Shown here: positions 2,153 to 53,552 of the stretch, one piece after another
Numbering within the stretch: position 1 is the stretch's first letter
Layout of the letters: each line of letters starts with the position of its first letter
Assembly (NCBI GenBank): GCA_023630215.1
Contig: JALPRQ010000001.1
Span: 1,922,001 to 1,986,000, forward strand
Source: Rhodobacteraceae bacterium NBU2976
Lineage (GTDB): Bacteria > Pseudomonadota > Alphaproteobacteria > Rhodobacterales > Rhodobacteraceae
DNA length: 64,000 nt
Reading direction: 5' to 3'
The notes under the pieces: model-generated
Databases searched by the model: none
Told to the model about the DNA's origin: nothing
The model's input: only the letters and a program-made list of their open reading frames with translations
Made by a program: the position numbers and the translations under genes

Positions 2153-2181
2153 GTGACCTTCCCTTTCCCATGGGTTACAAT
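2153..2181 (+). promoter_or_regulatory. Predicted pdhA promoter
   Basis: GTGACC (2153-2158), a 17-base spacer and TACAAT (2176-2181) fit a housekeeping sigma-70 promoter. It would give a leader of roughly 30 bases before the pdhA ATG at 2217, which carries the ribosome site GAAGGAGAG. This places the pdh operon under its own promoter, after the kinase gene. Confidence 0.55.
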
Positions 2182-2216
2182 AATAGTTCAATATTAAACT
2201 TCTTGAAGGAGAGCCC

Positions 2217-3218
2217 ATGGCTGCCAAGAAGCCGAATGTGTCGAAGGATGAGCTCCTCGAATATTATCGCGAAATGTTGTTGATCCGCCGGTTCGAAGAA
2301 AAAGCGGGGCAATTATACGGGATGGGTCAGATTGGGGGCTTCTGCCACCTCTATATCGGTCAGGAAGCCGTTGTGGTCGGACTGGAAGCCACAGCCAAAG
2401 ATGGCGATCAACGTATCACGTCTTATCGCGATCACGGGCATATGCTGGCCTGCGGGATGGACCCCAAAGGTGTGATGGCCGAATTGACCGGACGCGAGGG
2501 TGGCTATTCCAAGGGCAAAGGTGGCTCTATGCACATGTTCTCTAAGGAGAAGGATTTTTACGGTGGCCACGGGATCGTCGCCGCGCAGGTTCCGCTTGGC
2601 ACGGGGCTGGCCTTTGCGAACAAGTACAAAGGCAATGACAACGTGACCTTTACCTATTTCGGCGATGGCGCAGCCAACCAAGGTCAGATTTACGAAAGTT
2701 ACAACATGGCGTCTTTGTGGAAGCTGCCTGTTGTCTATGTGATCGAAAACAACAAATACGCGATGGGAACCAGCCAGCAGCGCGCGTCATCTTCCCCCAA
2801 ACTTTATACGCGTGGGGAAGCGTTCAGCATTCCCGGCGAGGAAGTTGACGGAATGGACGTGCTGGCAGTGAAAGCCGCTGGTGAGAAAGCGGTCGCGCAC
2901 TGTCGTGCCGGCAAAGGTCCGTATATTCTAGAGATGAGCACGTATCGCTATCGCGGACATTCCATGTCCGATCCGGCAAAATACCGGACGCGTGAAGAGG
3001 TGCAGAAAATGCGCGAGGAGCATGATCCCATCGAACAGGTCCGTAAGATTCTGTTGACGGGTGATCACGCCTCTGAAGACGATCTGAAAGATATCGACAA
3101 AGATATCAAGAAAGTGGTGGCCGAAGCCGCCGACTTTGCCGTTGAAAGCCCCGAGCCGGATGTGTCCGAGCTTTGGACAGATATCTACGCCAAGGAAATC
3201 CCACAGGAGGCAGTGTAA
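2217..3218 (+). CDS. pdhA: Pyruvate dehydrogenase E1 component, alpha subunit
   Basis: A 333-residue E1alpha. The thiamine-diphosphate motif runs from [13 protein letters not shown] to [11 protein letters not shown], and the conserved loop [13 protein letters not shown] follows near residue 245. The protein decarboxylates pyruvate together with PdhB and passes the hydroxyethyl group to lipoyl domains of the pyruvate dehydrogenase complex in the cytosol. Its stop overlaps the pdhB start by one base, so the two subunits are probably translationally coupled. The length is normal for the heterotetrameric E1 of alphaproteobacteria. A strong ribosome site (AAGGAGAG) precedes the ATG. Confidence 0.98.
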
Positions 3219-13737: not shown

Positions 13738-14958
13738 ATGAATACCCCGAATGACACACTCGCCAAACGCAATGTAAAGGTGCTGGTTGCCGCCCAAGCA
13801 ATTTTGGGCAGCCAGATGCCAGTCTATTTCGTTTTGGGTGGGCTGGCGGGGCAGTATCTGGCAAGCAACCCGTGTTTTGCGACATTACCGATCTCGCTGA
13901 TCGTGCTGGGCTCGATGTTAAGTGCGCCAGTCATGTCGTCGATTATGCAGGCACGTGGGCGCCGTTTTGGGTTTTTGATGGGCACACTTGCCGGTGTGGT
14001 GGGTTCGGCCGTCGCCGCATATGGGTTGTGGATCAACAGTTTTGCGGTGTTCCTTTTGGGCTCGTTCATCTCGGGCTTTTACATGAGCGCGCAAGGTTTT
14101 TATCGCTTTGCTGCTACCGATATGGCGACTCCGGAATTTCTACCCAAGGCGGTCAGCTGGGTCATGGCAGGCGGGCTGATTTCCGCAATCCTTGGCCCAC
14201 AGCTGGTCAATTATACGTCTGATATGTTTTTACCGGTGGAGTTTGTTGGCTCGTATCTTGCTGTTGTTGTTCTCAACATTGTCGGGGCGGCATTATTTTT
14301 GTTTCTGGATATCCCGACACCTGCCAAACCCAGTGCGGACAGCCCACGCGGCCGCACACGGCGCGAGCTGTTAAAAGACCCCGGGATCGTCGTGCCGATG
14401 ATCGCCGCGATGGTCAGCTATTCATTGATGAATTTGGTGATGACCTCGACCCCACTGGCGGTCATCGGCTGCGGATTCGAGCAGGAGGATGCCTCCAATA
14501 TTGTTTCCGCCCATGTGCTAGCGATGTTTGTGCCAAGCTTCTTCACCGGTCACCTTATTCGCCGTTTCGGTGTCGAAGTGATTATCGCCATTGGTCTGGT
14601 GATACTTGCAGGGGCGGGAACCGTTGCCCTTGCAGGTGTTGCACTAGAGAATTTCTATATTGCGCTGGTGCTGTTGGGCATCGGTTGGAATTTTGGCTTT
14701 ATCGGTGGCACAACCATGCTGGCCCGGGCGCACACGCCCGAAGAACGCGGACGTGTTCAGGGTATGAACGATTTTGCGGTCTTCGGTATGGTGACAGTCG
14801 CCTCGCTCAGCTCGGGTGGCTTGATGAACTGTTCAGGCGGCGATGCACAGACCGGATGGGCCGCCGTTAACTACGCGATGATCCCGTTTCTGATGTTGGC
14901 CGGTGGGGCGTTGTTGTGGTTTGTGATTGGTGGGAGGCGCAAGAGATATGTTCAATAG
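13738..14958 (+). CDS. Major facilitator superfamily transporter
   Basis: A 406-residue membrane protein with about twelve hydrophobic segments and MFS features: the loop between helices 2 and 3 (IMQARGRRFGFLMG), and a central hydrophilic loop (about residues 200-218, KPSADSPRGRTRRELLK). I chose ATG 13738 (MNTPNDTLAKRNVKV) because it directly precedes the first helix; a longer frame would run antisense to the glycosylase. Its last 11 bases overlap the start of the HExxH protein gene, implying co-translation. The substrate is not recognisable. Confidence 0.9.
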   Translation: MNTPNDTLAKRNVKVLVAAQAILGSQMPVYFVLGGLAGQYLASNPCFATLPISLIVLGSMLSAPVMSSIMQARGRRFGFLMGTLAGVVGSAVAAYGLWINSFAVFLLGSFISGFYMSAQGFYRFAATDMATPEFLPKAVSWVMAGGLISAILGPQLVNYTSDMFLPVEFVGSYLAVVVLNIVGAALFLFLDIPTPAKPSADSPRGRTRRELLKDPGIVVPMIAAMVSYSLMNLVMTSTPLAVIGCGFEQEDASNIVSAHVLAMFVPSFFTGHLIRRFGVEVIIAIGLVILAGAGTVALAGVALENFYIALVLLGIGWNFGFIGGTTMLARAHTPEERGRVQGMNDFAVFGMVTVASLSSGGLMNCSGGDAQTGWAAVNYAMIPFLMLAGGALLWFVIGGRRKRYVQ

Positions 14959-18107: not shown

Positions 18108-18166
18108 CGTCCCGGCCCTTGAGCCGAGACCTCGCGTCCAAGAGGTCCCGGCTCAAGCCCGGGACG
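18108..18166. repeat. Long palindromic repeat between cimA and cysS
   Basis: The arms CGTCCCGGCCCTTGAGCC (from 18108) and GGCTCAAGCCCGGGACG (to 18166) belong to a nearly perfect 25-base inverted repeat around the loop GCGTCCAA. The sequence type (GGGACG...CGTCCC with CTTGAGCC) resembles dispersed palindromes common in alphaproteobacterial intergenic regions. It is 12 bases upstream of the cimA ATG and overlaps no gene. Confidence 0.75.
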
Positions 18167-47573: not shown

Positions 47574-47617
47574 AAAAATATTGTCCGGCGGCTATGCTCG
47601 CCGGGCAATATTTTTTT
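47574..47617 (+). terminator. Intrinsic terminator of ilvC abutting the next ribosome site
   Basis: AAAAATATTG (47574-47583) and CCGGCG pair with CGCCGG and CAATATTTTT (to 47615) around loop GCTATGCT, followed by two more T. The next gene's GGAGAG ribosome site begins at 47618, one base after the T-run. Termination here would therefore also switch off the following gene unless reads continue or a promoter lies within ilvC. Confidence 0.88.
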
Positions 47618-50914: not shown

Positions 50915-51466
50915 ATGACCGTATGGACCCGCCGTGGCTTTATCATTGCTGGAGGCGCCACCGTTGCCGCCTGTTCCAATTCCACGATCAACCAACCCGC
51001 AAGTGAGCTGAATGCTCGCGTGGATCAGGCACGGGCCGAAATGTTTCGCACGATCCCGGGGGCCGAACAACTGGCGGCACAGGCTGCCGGTGTTTTGATC
51101 GTCCCCGATGTTACGCAGGCCGGGCTTATGGTTGGCGGATCATATGGCGAAGGCGCCCTGTTGATCGGCGAGGCGAAGGTCGCTTATTTCTCGTATGCGG
51201 CGGCGTCGTTCGGTCCCCAGATTGGGGTATCGCGATTCAATCATGCGCTGTTCTTCATGACACAGGAAGTGCTGACGCGTTTTCGCTATTCCGATGGCTG
51301 GCAATTGGGTCTTGATGCGGAATATACCACCCCGGAGGAAGCCGGATCGCTGGGCGTGACCACAACCACGATCAACCTGCCCGTCTATGCGCTGGTCTAT
51401 GGCCAGCAAGGGCTGATCCTTGGCGCGACGCTAGAGGGCGGAAAATATACCCCGATCAACCGTTAA
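50915..51466 (+). CDS. SYLF/YSC84-domain lipoprotein
   Basis: A 183-residue protein. The N-terminus has RRGF and a lipobox-like AACS (GATVAACSNS, about residue 20), so it is a likely lipoprotein or Tat-type export. The SYLF domain spans about residues 40-183 (GVLIVPDVTQAGLMVGGSYG, FFMTQEVLTRFRYSDGWQLG and GLILGATLEGGKYTPINR). SYLF proteins bind phosphoinositides or other lipids in eukaryotes; the bacterial role is unclear. Ribosome site ACAGGAG precedes the ATG. Its stop shares TTAA with the convergent lpdA. Confidence 0.88.
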   Translation: MTVWTRRGFIIAGGATVAACSNSTINQPASELNARVDQARAEMFRTIPGAEQLAAQAAGVLIVPDVTQAGLMVGGSYGEGALLIGEAKVAYFSYAAASFGPQIGVSRFNHALFFMTQEVLTRFRYSDGWQLGLDAEYTTPEEAGSLGVTTTTINLPVYALVYGQQGLILGATLEGGKYTPINR

Positions 51467-52851
51467 AGATGGATCATCCGTCCATAGGCATCTAGCACCG
51501 ATTCATGCATCATTTCTGACAGGGTCGGATGTGGGAAAACGGTGTCGATCAGTTCGGCCTCGGTCGTTTCAAGCGTTCGGCCAATGACGTAGCCTTGGAT
51601 TAGCTCGGTCACTTCTGGGCCAACCATATGTGCGCCCAGCAGCTCACCTGTTTTCGCATCAAAGATTGTTTTGATCAGACCCTCGGGTTCGCCCAACGCA
51701 ATGGCCTTGCCGTTACCGATATTGCTGAAACGGCCAACTTTGATCTCGTATCCCAGTTCTTTTGCCTTGGCTTCGGTGTAACCGACGGACGCCACTTGCG
51801 GATGGCAATAGGTGCAGCCCGCGATGCTTTCCGGGCGGATGGCGTGAACCTTCTTCCCGGCGATTTTTTCGGCCACCATCACCCCTTCATGTGAAGCCTT
51901 GTGCGCCAACCAGGGCGCGCCCGCAATGTCACCAATCGCATAGACACCATCAACCCCTGTTCCGCAATACTGATCCACCACCACATGGGTGCGGTCGATC
52001 TTGATACCCAGTTCTTCAAGGCCCAGATTTTCGACATTGCCGACAATGCCCACGGCCGAAATCACCGTATCAAATTCATGCTTTTCGATTTTTCCACCAG
52101 ATTCGATATGCGCTGTGACCTTGCCTTTGGCACGATCCAGCTGTTTGACCATGGATTTCTCCATGATCTTGATGCCCTGTTTTTCGAATTGCTTCTTGGC
52201 GAATTTTGAAATTTCTTCGTCCTCGACCGGCAGAACGCGGTCCAGCACCTCGACGACGGTCGTATCTGCGCCAAGCGTGTTGAAGAAACTTGCAAATTCG
52301 ATCCCGATGGCACCCGATCCGATCACCAGCAGCTTTTTGGGCATCCGTGGCGGGTTAAGCGCATGTTTATAGGTCCAGACCAGATCGCCATCGGCCTCCA
52401 ACCCAGGCAACTCGCGCGCCCGCGCACCGGTGGCGAGGATGATATTTTTGCCTTCCAGCGTCTCGGTTCCCTTTTCGGTCTTGACCGTCACCTTGCCTTT
52501 CGCAGCAATTTTCGCTTCGCCCATCACGACGTCGATCTTGTTTTTCTTCATCAGGAATCCGACGCCACTGGCCAGCTGGTTCGCCACCTTGCGGGATCGT
52601 TTCACAACCGCGTCCAGATCATAACCGAATTTGTCCGCGCTCAGGCCAAATTCCTTGGCCCGTTCCATCAGGTGATACACCTCGGCGGATCGCAACAAAG
52701 CCTTGGTCGGGATACACCCCCAGTTCAGGCAAATACCCCCCAGATGCTCACGCTCGACCACAACAGTTTTCAGACCAAGCTGGGCGGCACGAATGGCGGC
52801 AACATAGCCGCCGGGACCAGCGCCAATTACGATCACATCATAGGAAGCCAT
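51463..52851 (-). CDS. lpdA: Dihydrolipoyl dehydrogenase (E3)
   Basis: A 462-residue flavin disulfide reductase. The FAD motif is VIGAGPGGYVAAIRAAQLG (about residues 8-26); the redox pair is C41 and C46 in GGICLNWGCIPTKALL; the NAD motif is VIGSGAIGIEFASFFN; and the C-terminal active base is in HPTLSEMMHES. It reoxidises lipoyl groups of the PDH, 2-oxoglutarate dehydrogenase and glycine cleavage complexes. It is the natural E3 for pdhABC at 2217-5905. The leader holds a strong stem-loop (52861-52894) touching the ribosome site CAGGAG. Confidence 0.98.
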   Translation of the reverse strand: MASYDVIVIGAGPGGYVAAIRAAQLGLKTVVVEREHLGGICLNWGCIPTKALLRSAEVYHLMERAKEFGLSADKFGYDLDAVVKRSRKVANQLASGVGFLMKKNKIDVVMGEAKIAAKGKVTVKTEKGTETLEGKNIILATGARARELPGLEADGDLVWTYKHALNPPRMPKKLLVIGSGAIGIEFASFFNTLGADTTVVEVLDRVLPVEDEEISKFAKKQFEKQGIKIMEKSMVKQLDRAKGKVTAHIESGGKIEKHEFDTVISAVGIVGNVENLGLEELGIKIDRTHVVVDQYCGTGVDGVYAIGDIAGAPWLAHKASHEGVMVAEKIAGKKVHAIRPESIAGCTYCHPQVASVGYTEAKAKELGYEIKVGRFSNIGNGKAIALGEPEGLIKTIFDAKTGELLGAHMVGPEVTELIQGYVIGRTLETTEAELIDTVFPHPTLSEMMHESVLDAYGRMIHL

Positions 52852-52860
52852 CTGGGTTCT

Positions 52861-52894
52861 CCTGATTATAGTTTAGTCTTAAACCACAATCAGG
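52861..52894 (-). promoter_or_regulatory. lpdA leader stem-loop next to the ribosome binding site
   Basis: On the minus strand the 15-base arms CCTGATTGTGGTTTA and TAAACTATAATCAGG close a four-base loop AGAC. All 15 pairs form if two G-U pairs are allowed. On the plus strand these two positions become A-C mismatches, so the full stem exists only in the lpdA-sense RNA. The 3' arm ends in AGG, part of the AGGAG ribosome site, 9 bases before the ATG. No T-run follows, which speaks against a terminator. Translational control or mRNA processing is the likely role. Confidence 0.7.
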
Positions 52895-52934
52895 ATACCG
52901 GAAAATCCCGGAAGGTGCCAGAGGGGTTATGCCC

Positions 52935-53501
52935 TTACGCGGCAAGGTTTTGCAGCGTGTATCGATACCCACCTGCCGCCAGATAATCCCTCTCTTGCGC
53001 CGAAGATTCCCGCCCCAAAACTTCGTTGCGATACGGAAATCGGCCGAAACTGCGGATCACGGCGCGATGAGCGCGGGCGTGTTTCAGGTTCTCCTCATTG
53101 GGCATACGGGTCAAAAATGCCCGGACAGCCGCGTCCTGATCCCCAACGGATTCCGAATGCATCAGCGGCAGAAAGAAGAACTGGCGGATCCCGCCTTCGA
53201 TCTGTTCGTCCAACCGCATCGCAATGGCGCGTTTTGACAGGCAGACGGCTGTCTGATCCGTGGCAAAGGACCGGGCATCGCCGCGAAACATGTTGCGCGG
53301 AAACTGATCCAACAAAATGATAAGGGCCAACGCAGATTGCGCATTGGTCATCCAATCCCGAAACGCACCCGCCCGCGCCTGTTCCCACAGACCCAGAAAC
53401 CTGTCGCGTATGGTTTGGTCCAATTGATCCGAAACTTCGTACCAACCCTTCGGACCAATCGACTCCCAGAACTCCAAAATCTCTTGCGCACGCCTGTCCA
53501 T
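52935..53501 (-). CDS. DUF924 family protein
   Basis: A 188-residue helical protein with the DUF924 signature ALALIILLDQFPRNMFRGDARSFATD (split as ALIILLDQFPRNMFRG and DARSFATDQTA), the HSE segment FFFLPLMHSESVGDQ and FGRFPYRNEVLGRESSAQE near the end. The family folds like TPR-type helical bundles; function unknown. I chose ATG 53501 after AAGGTGAG; the GTG three codons upstream is less well placed. It is upstream of lpdA on the same strand, 83 bases away, with the lpdA stem-loop between. Confidence 0.88.
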   Translation of the reverse strand: MDRRAQEILEFWESIGPKGWYEVSDQLDQTIRDRFLGLWEQARAGAFRDWMTNAQSALALIILLDQFPRNMFRGDARSFATDQTAVCLSKRAIAMRLDEQIEGGIRQFFFLPLMHSESVGDQDAAVRAFLTRMPNEENLKHARAHRAVIRSFGRFPYRNEVLGRESSAQERDYLAAGGYRYTLQNLAA

Positions 53502-53552
53502 ACTGCTCACCTTGCTCTTTTTTTAGGCAGTTTTGCGCAATTTCCAGAAAAT

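Follow-up and report, generated by a model that had tools for sequence, protein, structure and literature searches.

Cra/FruR and other regulators of the LacI family recognise operators that are even-length palindromes, often with CpG at the centre, and the palindrome of PdhR differs from TAGTTTA-N4-TAAACTA, the sequence with which this work is concerned. PdhR itself, in the accessible part of one account, is a pyruvate-responsive protein of the GntR family in gammaproteobacteria and controls the aceEF-lpdA operon (PMC5343134).

A literature search for an operator, a motif or a stem-loop upstream of lpdA, pdhA or malic-enzyme genes returned nothing closer than a network reconstruction for Rhodobacter sphaeroides published in 2015, the accessible portion of which predicts that the LacI-family protein RSP_1663 binds [A/G/T]GTT-N6-8-AAC[A/C/T], with predicted targets that include RSP_2968, RSP_4047-4050, the malic enzyme RSP_1593, and glycolytic and other genes (PMC4344238). 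The same portion assigns two spacer classes, found as two clusters, to this one regulator, and states that experimental analysis is still needed (PMC4344238). RSP_2968 is given as a possible E3 gene of pyruvate dehydrogenase (PDH) in the available part of another paper (PMC12632250), and the available part of a third reports that RSP_2968 and pdhAB are both lower in an R. sphaeroides iscR mutant (PMC4618611). Their joint drop is consistent with co-control. We take RSP_1663 to be the regulator that was later named CceR. The CceR of P. denitrificans is reported, in the text accessible for it, as a repressor of glycolytic pathways and an activator of gluconeogenic enzymes (PMC11323563).

The locus described here lies in a window of 64,000 nucleotides, the whole stretch of DNA that was analysed, in which lpdA, the gene for E3, stands about 50 kb from pdhABC. 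PDH requires E1, E2 and E3 in balance, and a shared operator is a testable answer to the problem of matching their supply from unlinked genes. An initial annotation of this DNA had drawn attention to a stem-loop just upstream of lpdA and had read it as an RNA structure; the evidence below indicates that its core, at 52869-52886, is very probably the DNA operator of a putative homodimeric regulator of the pyruvate node, common to pdhA and lpdA. The features needed for the argument are as follows, with gene names resting on Pfam and NCBIfam.

51463-52851, minus strand: lpdA, 462 aa, dihydrolipoyl dehydrogenase (E3), which passes the TIGR01350 cut-off of 409 with 571 bits
52859-52863, minus strand: Shine-Dalgarno sequence AGGAG of lpdA, its first four bases (AGGA) inside the 3' arm of the stem
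52860-52895, minus strand: full inverted repeat, 16 pairs and a 4-base loop, the outer 9 pairs lying beyond the operator core
52869-52886, minus strand: predicted palindromic operator core of 18 bp, TGGTTTA-AGAC-TAAACTA, differing from TAGTTTA-N4-TAAACTA at 1 of 14 positions; it forms the inner portion of the stem-loop
52876-52881, minus strand: candidate -10 element TAAGAC, within the palindrome, from alignment with relatives
52899-52904, minus strand: -35 position TTTCCG, degenerate, with TT alone kept here (the relatives most often have TTGATG or TTGAAG)
52935-53510, minus strand: DUF924 gene (PF06041, E 2.9e-56), in the same direction as lpdA and 83 bp upstream of it
2153-2181, plus strand: promoter-like GTGACC-N17-TACAAT of pdhA, 9 of 12 consensus matches, with a predicted start within the operator
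2184-2201, plus strand: predicted second operator copy, TAGTTCA-ATAT-TAAACTT, with 2 mismatches in 14, 15 bp upstream of the pdhA start
2217-3218, plus strand: pdhA, pyruvate dehydrogenase E1 alpha, which passes the TIGR03182 cut-off of 394 with 524 bits
3173-4594, plus strand: ORF of the E1 beta gene, next after pdhA (Pfam)

The inverted repeat between DUF924 and lpdA

In the lpdA-sense RNA, read from the minus strand, TCCTGATTGTGGTTTA, the loop AGAC and TAAACTATAATCAGGA form 16 contiguous pairs at 52860-52895, of which 14 are Watson-Crick and two are G-U, with a loop of 4 bases. The stem-loop that had been placed at 52851-52894 with 15 pairs thus exists, and its 3' arm does include the first bases of AGGAG, namely the first four (AGGA) of a motif running from 52863 to 52859. 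When 71 bases containing the stem are folded, the sense strand reaches a minimum free energy of -27.4 kcal/mol, where shuffles average -14.8 (z -4.4; none of 200 shuffles equals it), and the antisense strand reaches -19.9 (z -2.6; equalled by 4 of 200). Contiguous stems of at least 15 pairs with a loop of 3-8 bases occur at 4 places in the window, counted on both strands, against none in 4 block shuffles, each of one strand. The inverted repeat upstream of lpdA is therefore real and beyond chance, and when 67 dereplicated lpdA sites are compared as 46-base folds, that of this genome is the most stable.

Other long contiguous stems in the window lie at 14599-14642 on the plus strand (19 pairs, 7 of them G-U), at 47574-47615 on the plus strand (18 pairs, 2 G-U) and at 18118-18157 on the minus strand (16 pairs, 1 G-U); the last two, with few G-U pairs, could be terminators or repeats.

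What kind of element the lpdA stem might be was approached from several sides. A dispersed repeat was rejected: the 91-base region has no other match at E 0.001 in 13 genomes of the genus, and the 18-mer TAGTTTAATGCTAAACTA, with up to 3 mismatches allowed, matches in this genome the lpdA place alone. An Rfam search of the window at the gathering score returned two tRNAs only and no family match for the stem. Its position between DUF924 and lpdA would suit a transcription terminator of the DUF924 gene; this is extremely unlikely, as the 36-base hairpin is followed by a ribosome site, without a U-run, and the sole terminator-like match, at 52910-52891, is a different and weak stem of 6 pairs. 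The stable sense fold and the overlap with AGGAG, finally, favour an RNA hairpin that would act in cis in the leader of lpdA, if only in RNA that reads through from DUF924, and would mask the ribosome site or mark a processing point. The relatives bear on this last reading, both through the genes at which the palindrome recurs and through the way in which its arms vary.

Conservation of the palindrome and its place at promoters

The sample upstream of lpdA consists of 134 places, made up of 30 loci (this genome, 11 of the same genus and 18 of the family) together with 24 and 80 further ones, with 12 of the 13 least similar places in the 24-locus search left out. TAGTTTA-N4-TAAACTA is present with at most 3 mismatches in 14 in 104 of these 134 regions, against 0.45% of single-base shuffles, and with at most 2 in 98 of them, against 0.04%; in the other 30 no site with 3 or fewer mismatches was found, which counts against the operator reading. 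Removal of 7 near-identical same-genus rows left 97 lpdA sites for closer comparison. In these the left half of the palindrome is better conserved than the right, whose innermost base is T in 54 and C in 43. In most sites, at lpdA and at the other genes, the two central bases form a pyrimidine-purine step, often CG, which favours an operator. What is conserved in the inner 18 bp at lpdA is the sequence. The distance from the palindrome to the start codon is 15-40 nt in the 97 sites and 17 here, the second shortest; its closeness to the start codon is not special to this genome, and the RNA reading gains from the fact that in relatives, too, the ribosome site follows soon after.

Regarding other positions in this genome, the window holds, besides the lpdA site, one palindrome with 3 or fewer mismatches, at 2184-2201 before pdhA. 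Two such palindromes per 64 kb were reached in 9 of 100 shuffles and are unremarkable by number. Across the whole 2.8-Mb genome the best match is the lpdA site and the pdhA site is one of three at 2 mismatches; there are four sites with at most 2 mismatches, the pdhA copy included, and 29 with at most 3 against 99 for a reversed control, so there is no enrichment. In this genome, only the rank and the position of the sites are informative, not their number. Another copy with 2 mismatches, TAGTTTACTATACAACTA, lies at 437143-437160 of contig C1, about 60 bases upstream of a gene for a GntR-type regulator (named by eye); it is perhaps that regulator's own site, or a chance match.

The family gives a much clearer picture. 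Among the best 30 of 135 pdhA loci by protein similarity, this genome's included, every one carries a site with 3 or fewer mismatches. The exact form TAGTTTA-N5-AAACTA occurs in 77 of 149 family genomes, against 14 for the reversed control, and of the 82 exact sites listed in these genomes 23 lie before lpdA, 32 before pdhA, 22 before a malic-enzyme gene and 5 elsewhere, which places 77 of the 82 upstream of pdhA, lpdA or the malic-enzyme gene maeB. One exact 18-mer was found in at least 118 stretches of named genomes; among 80 listed loci that carry it, 55 have it before pdhA, 17 before a malic-enzyme gene and 1 before lpdA, and 7 received no assignment from the script, 4 of which end at the edge of the locus beside what appear to be the usual neighbours of pdhA or maeB. 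By title, two of the 80 are Firmicutes (Virgibacillus and Clostridia), and the rest are, as far as recognised, Rhodobacteraceae, Paracoccaceae or other Alphaproteobacteria. The malic-enzyme query was a fragment, below the NCBIfam cut-off and above both malic-enzyme Pfam cut-offs. The one homologue found with it in this genome, at 153536-154975 of contig C1 and with 52% identity to the query, lacks the operator (best match 6 mismatches), a further point against the operator reading.

As for the protein that might bind, no regulator gene stands out among the genes around the first 30 exact sites. Six genes of the LacI type are present in this genome, none of them within 1 kb of its listed palindrome sites with 3 or fewer mismatches. 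In one relative an exact copy, one of the 5 listed sites outside the three genes, shares bases with the stop codon of a gene judged by eye to be TetR-like. The exact 14-mer TGTTAGCGCTAACA, presumably a CceR site, is present in 16 of the 149 genomes and absent from this one, and does not settle the identity of the regulator.

The palindrome also has a fixed relation to a promoter at lpdA, as seen when the sites are registered on it (96 sites, one of the 97 being too short upstream). TTG stands exactly 18 bases upstream of the palindrome in 68 of the 96, against 6 for the next-best offset, with T at -18 in 88 and G at -16 in 85. With a 17-base spacer, the -10 element would be TAAYGB at palindrome positions 6-11, where positions 6-8 are T in 93, A in 96 and A in 89 of the 96 sites; a -10 element inside the palindrome may explain the stronger conservation of the left half. 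On this geometry transcription of lpdA would start at about palindrome positions 17-18, near 52870, and an mRNA from that start would be without the 5' arm of the stem. The fixed relation is present in the relatives; in this genome the -35 position, TTTCCG, is degenerate and a consensus promoter scan found no promoter at lpdA, which tells against the operator reading here and means that the local geometry is inferred from the relatives.

At pdhA the arrangement differs. No offset of TTG[AC] exceeds 3 of 40 sites, and in this genome GTGACC-N17-TACAAT ends 2 bases before the palindrome (one of two such matches in 151 bases, shuffle mean 0.2). The innermost right base is T in all 40 pdhA rows, in which one genome appears twice or more, and in all 22 maeB rows, the maeB rows and 10 of the pdhA rows having come from a search pattern in which this base could vary. 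The palindrome thus keeps its sequence while it is shifted against the promoter, and in this it behaves as an operator. Its recurrence at other genes, and the promoter within it in relatives, argue against the selection for an RNA structure that the initial annotation had proposed.

Strand neutrality and symmetric flanks

The proposal that the stem is strand-selective rested on its two G-U pairs in the sense RNA and so on two positions only. Little can be built on them, since the odds that two independent positions agree in strand by chance are one in two. In the core of the 97 lpdA sites the sense mispairs are A-C in 58 instances and G-U in 28; selection on the sense RNA is expected to give more G-U than A-C, so this count goes against strand selectivity. 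The excess of A-C comes from the innermost pair (43), and without that pair there are 15 A-C and 28 G-U; promoter asymmetry may lie behind it, and the core count alone is not a strong test. G-U pairs are not enriched.

The ribosome site was considered separately. A contiguous arm extends into it in one of the 96 lpdA sites with a recognisable site, that of this genome, and in three of 96 when one mismatch is allowed. When the sense strand is folded from 25 bases upstream as far as the start codon, three or more of the 6 ribosome-site bases pair with upstream sequence in 60 of 93 predictions, which favours the RNA hairpin; the same masking is found in 54.5 of 93 when the left flanks are swapped (z 1.4; 12 of 100 swaps as high), which is no clear excess. 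Masking appears to be common in these predictions, though not clearly above what composition gives, and the action on the lpdA ribosome site that had been suggested is not borne out.

Regarding the arms outside the core, covariation in relatives, the check that the initial annotation had recommended, revealed that the repeat is conserved upstream of lpdA and that symmetric compensating changes are present. The outer arm sequence is peculiar to this genome, and symmetry at flank pairs 10-14, counted from the centre, is general at lpdA: 245 pairs are Watson-Crick against 206.5 expected on re-dealt right flanks (z 4.9), and 162 against 132.5 after dereplication to 66 sites (z 4.1), in the exact register only. 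Dereplication reduces relatedness in all these flank tests and does not eliminate it. Pairs 15-20 give no signal in register 0; the noise there can be gauged from slides of +1 and +3, with ratios of 1.20 and 1.09 after dereplication (1.13 and 1.12 before). Each of the four Watson-Crick pair types is in excess at the flanks, and stratification by A+T leaves a z of 3.4. A-tract symmetry as the source was rejected, as G-C pairs are also in excess, with z 3.4 after that stratification. In one relative of the same genus the flanks differ and are again nearly palindromic around the lpdA operator, with one mismatch followed by 7 pairs.

This symmetry belongs equally to both strands. At each of three levels of dereplication the native lpdA flanks give more stable folds than swapped flanks do, with sense z values of -5.8, -4.0 and -3.3 and antisense values of -5.8, -3.9 and -3.3; the difference of sense minus antisense has z -0.2 to -0.8, and -0.1 when this genome is removed. 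At pdhA the flank symmetry is weak, with a sense z of -2.4 at one level of dereplication and -0.9 at another, and at maeB it is nil (z +1.1 and +0.3, likewise). The inverted-repeat signal at lpdA therefore extends past the operator core, is strand-neutral and is not diagnostic of RNA. A palindromic operator can mimic a strand-selective RNA hairpin, and to tell them apart by covariation alone requires that it be scored on both strands. The covariation of the flanks and its four pair types speak for an RNA hairpin; with its strand neutrality, the promoter inside the palindrome in relatives, the core mispairs, the recurrence of the palindrome at other genes, the single contiguous arm, the masking by swapped flanks and the lack of an Rfam family on the other side, we regard an RNA hairpin in the lpdA leader as very unlikely.

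The covariation does not fit a plain operator core either, and is unexplained. One possibility, which we hold tentatively, is an extension at the DNA level, in which the operator core is supplemented at lpdA by symmetric flanks that provide extra dyad contacts or a cruciform-prone arm. The strand-neutral signal, limited to pairs 10-14 in the exact register, weak at pdhA and nil at maeB, agrees with this, although an ordinary homodimer site gives arbitrary bases no reason to covary across the dyad, and residual relatedness may inflate the signal. Somewhat less likely is a purely mutational origin, with template switching at an existing palindrome copying one arm onto the other without selection. 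This would account for the strand neutrality, the four pair types and the arms that differ by lineage, the long one of this genome among them; the more perfect palindromes of pdhA and maeB should then show more symmetry, yet theirs is weak or absent. A dual use, as DNA operator and, through the covarying flanks, as a cruciform or a hairpin in read-through mRNA, which here would have grown to reach the ribosome site and added translational control of LpdA, seems unlikely indeed.

A candidate operator and its described counterparts

The reading that we prefer, an operator core shared by lpdA and pdhA, leaves these flank pairs unaccounted for and would work as follows. A dimeric regulator would bind the same palindrome at pdhA and lpdA, and in many relatives at the malic-enzyme gene too, so that E1/E2 and the separately encoded E3 would be switched together. 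At lpdA the palindrome holds the candidate -10 element and overlaps the predicted start, and at pdhA it begins just past the -10 element; these positions predict repression by a block to RNA polymerase. A metabolite of the pyruvate node would presumably lift this repression, and E1/E2 and E3 would rise together. The initial annotation had suggested that the stem could set the supply of E3 against that of the distant pdhABC, and the part of this that survives is the link between the two loci, which share the palindrome; the lpdA site most likely couples E3 to PDH rather than decoupling it. More broadly, a compact regulon of the pyruvate node, spanning a bacterial family, is what the shared palindrome predicts.

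The operator and its gene set had already been predicted in R. sphaeroides, as the accessible part of that reconstruction makes clear, and are not new as a prediction (PMC4344238). Both sites fit the motif given there for RSP_1663, with GGTT-N8-AACT at lpdA and AGTT-N8-AACT at pdhA, each with the 8-base spacer (PMC4344238). With RSP_2968 as a possible E3 gene (PMC12632250), the genes named there correspond to lpdA, pdhABC and a malic enzyme. The regulon described in that part is wider and takes in glycolytic genes (PMC4344238), whereas here the 8-base-spacer class lies almost only at three genes among the sites listed. For a single LacI-type dimer to accept spacers that differ by 2 bases would be unusual. 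The literature search found no report of RSP_1663 binding the 8-base-spacer class, and no paper that firmly identifies a regulator of the palindrome.

With Cra/FruR the present palindrome shares an even length, its centre being mostly pyrimidine-purine and often CG; the half-site is another one, and membership of the binding protein in the LacI family is putative. The likeness to PdhR, as far as the accessible part of that account goes, lies in function, namely a pyruvate-responsive regulator of pyruvate dehydrogenase genes that include lpdA, and the difference lies in organisation, since aceEF-lpdA is one operon and here one palindrome marks unlinked genes (PMC5343134). What the present comparison adds to these systems is the near-confinement of the 8-base class, in many genera, to three genes among the sites listed, the promoter that lies within the palindrome at lpdA, and the covariation of the flanks around it.
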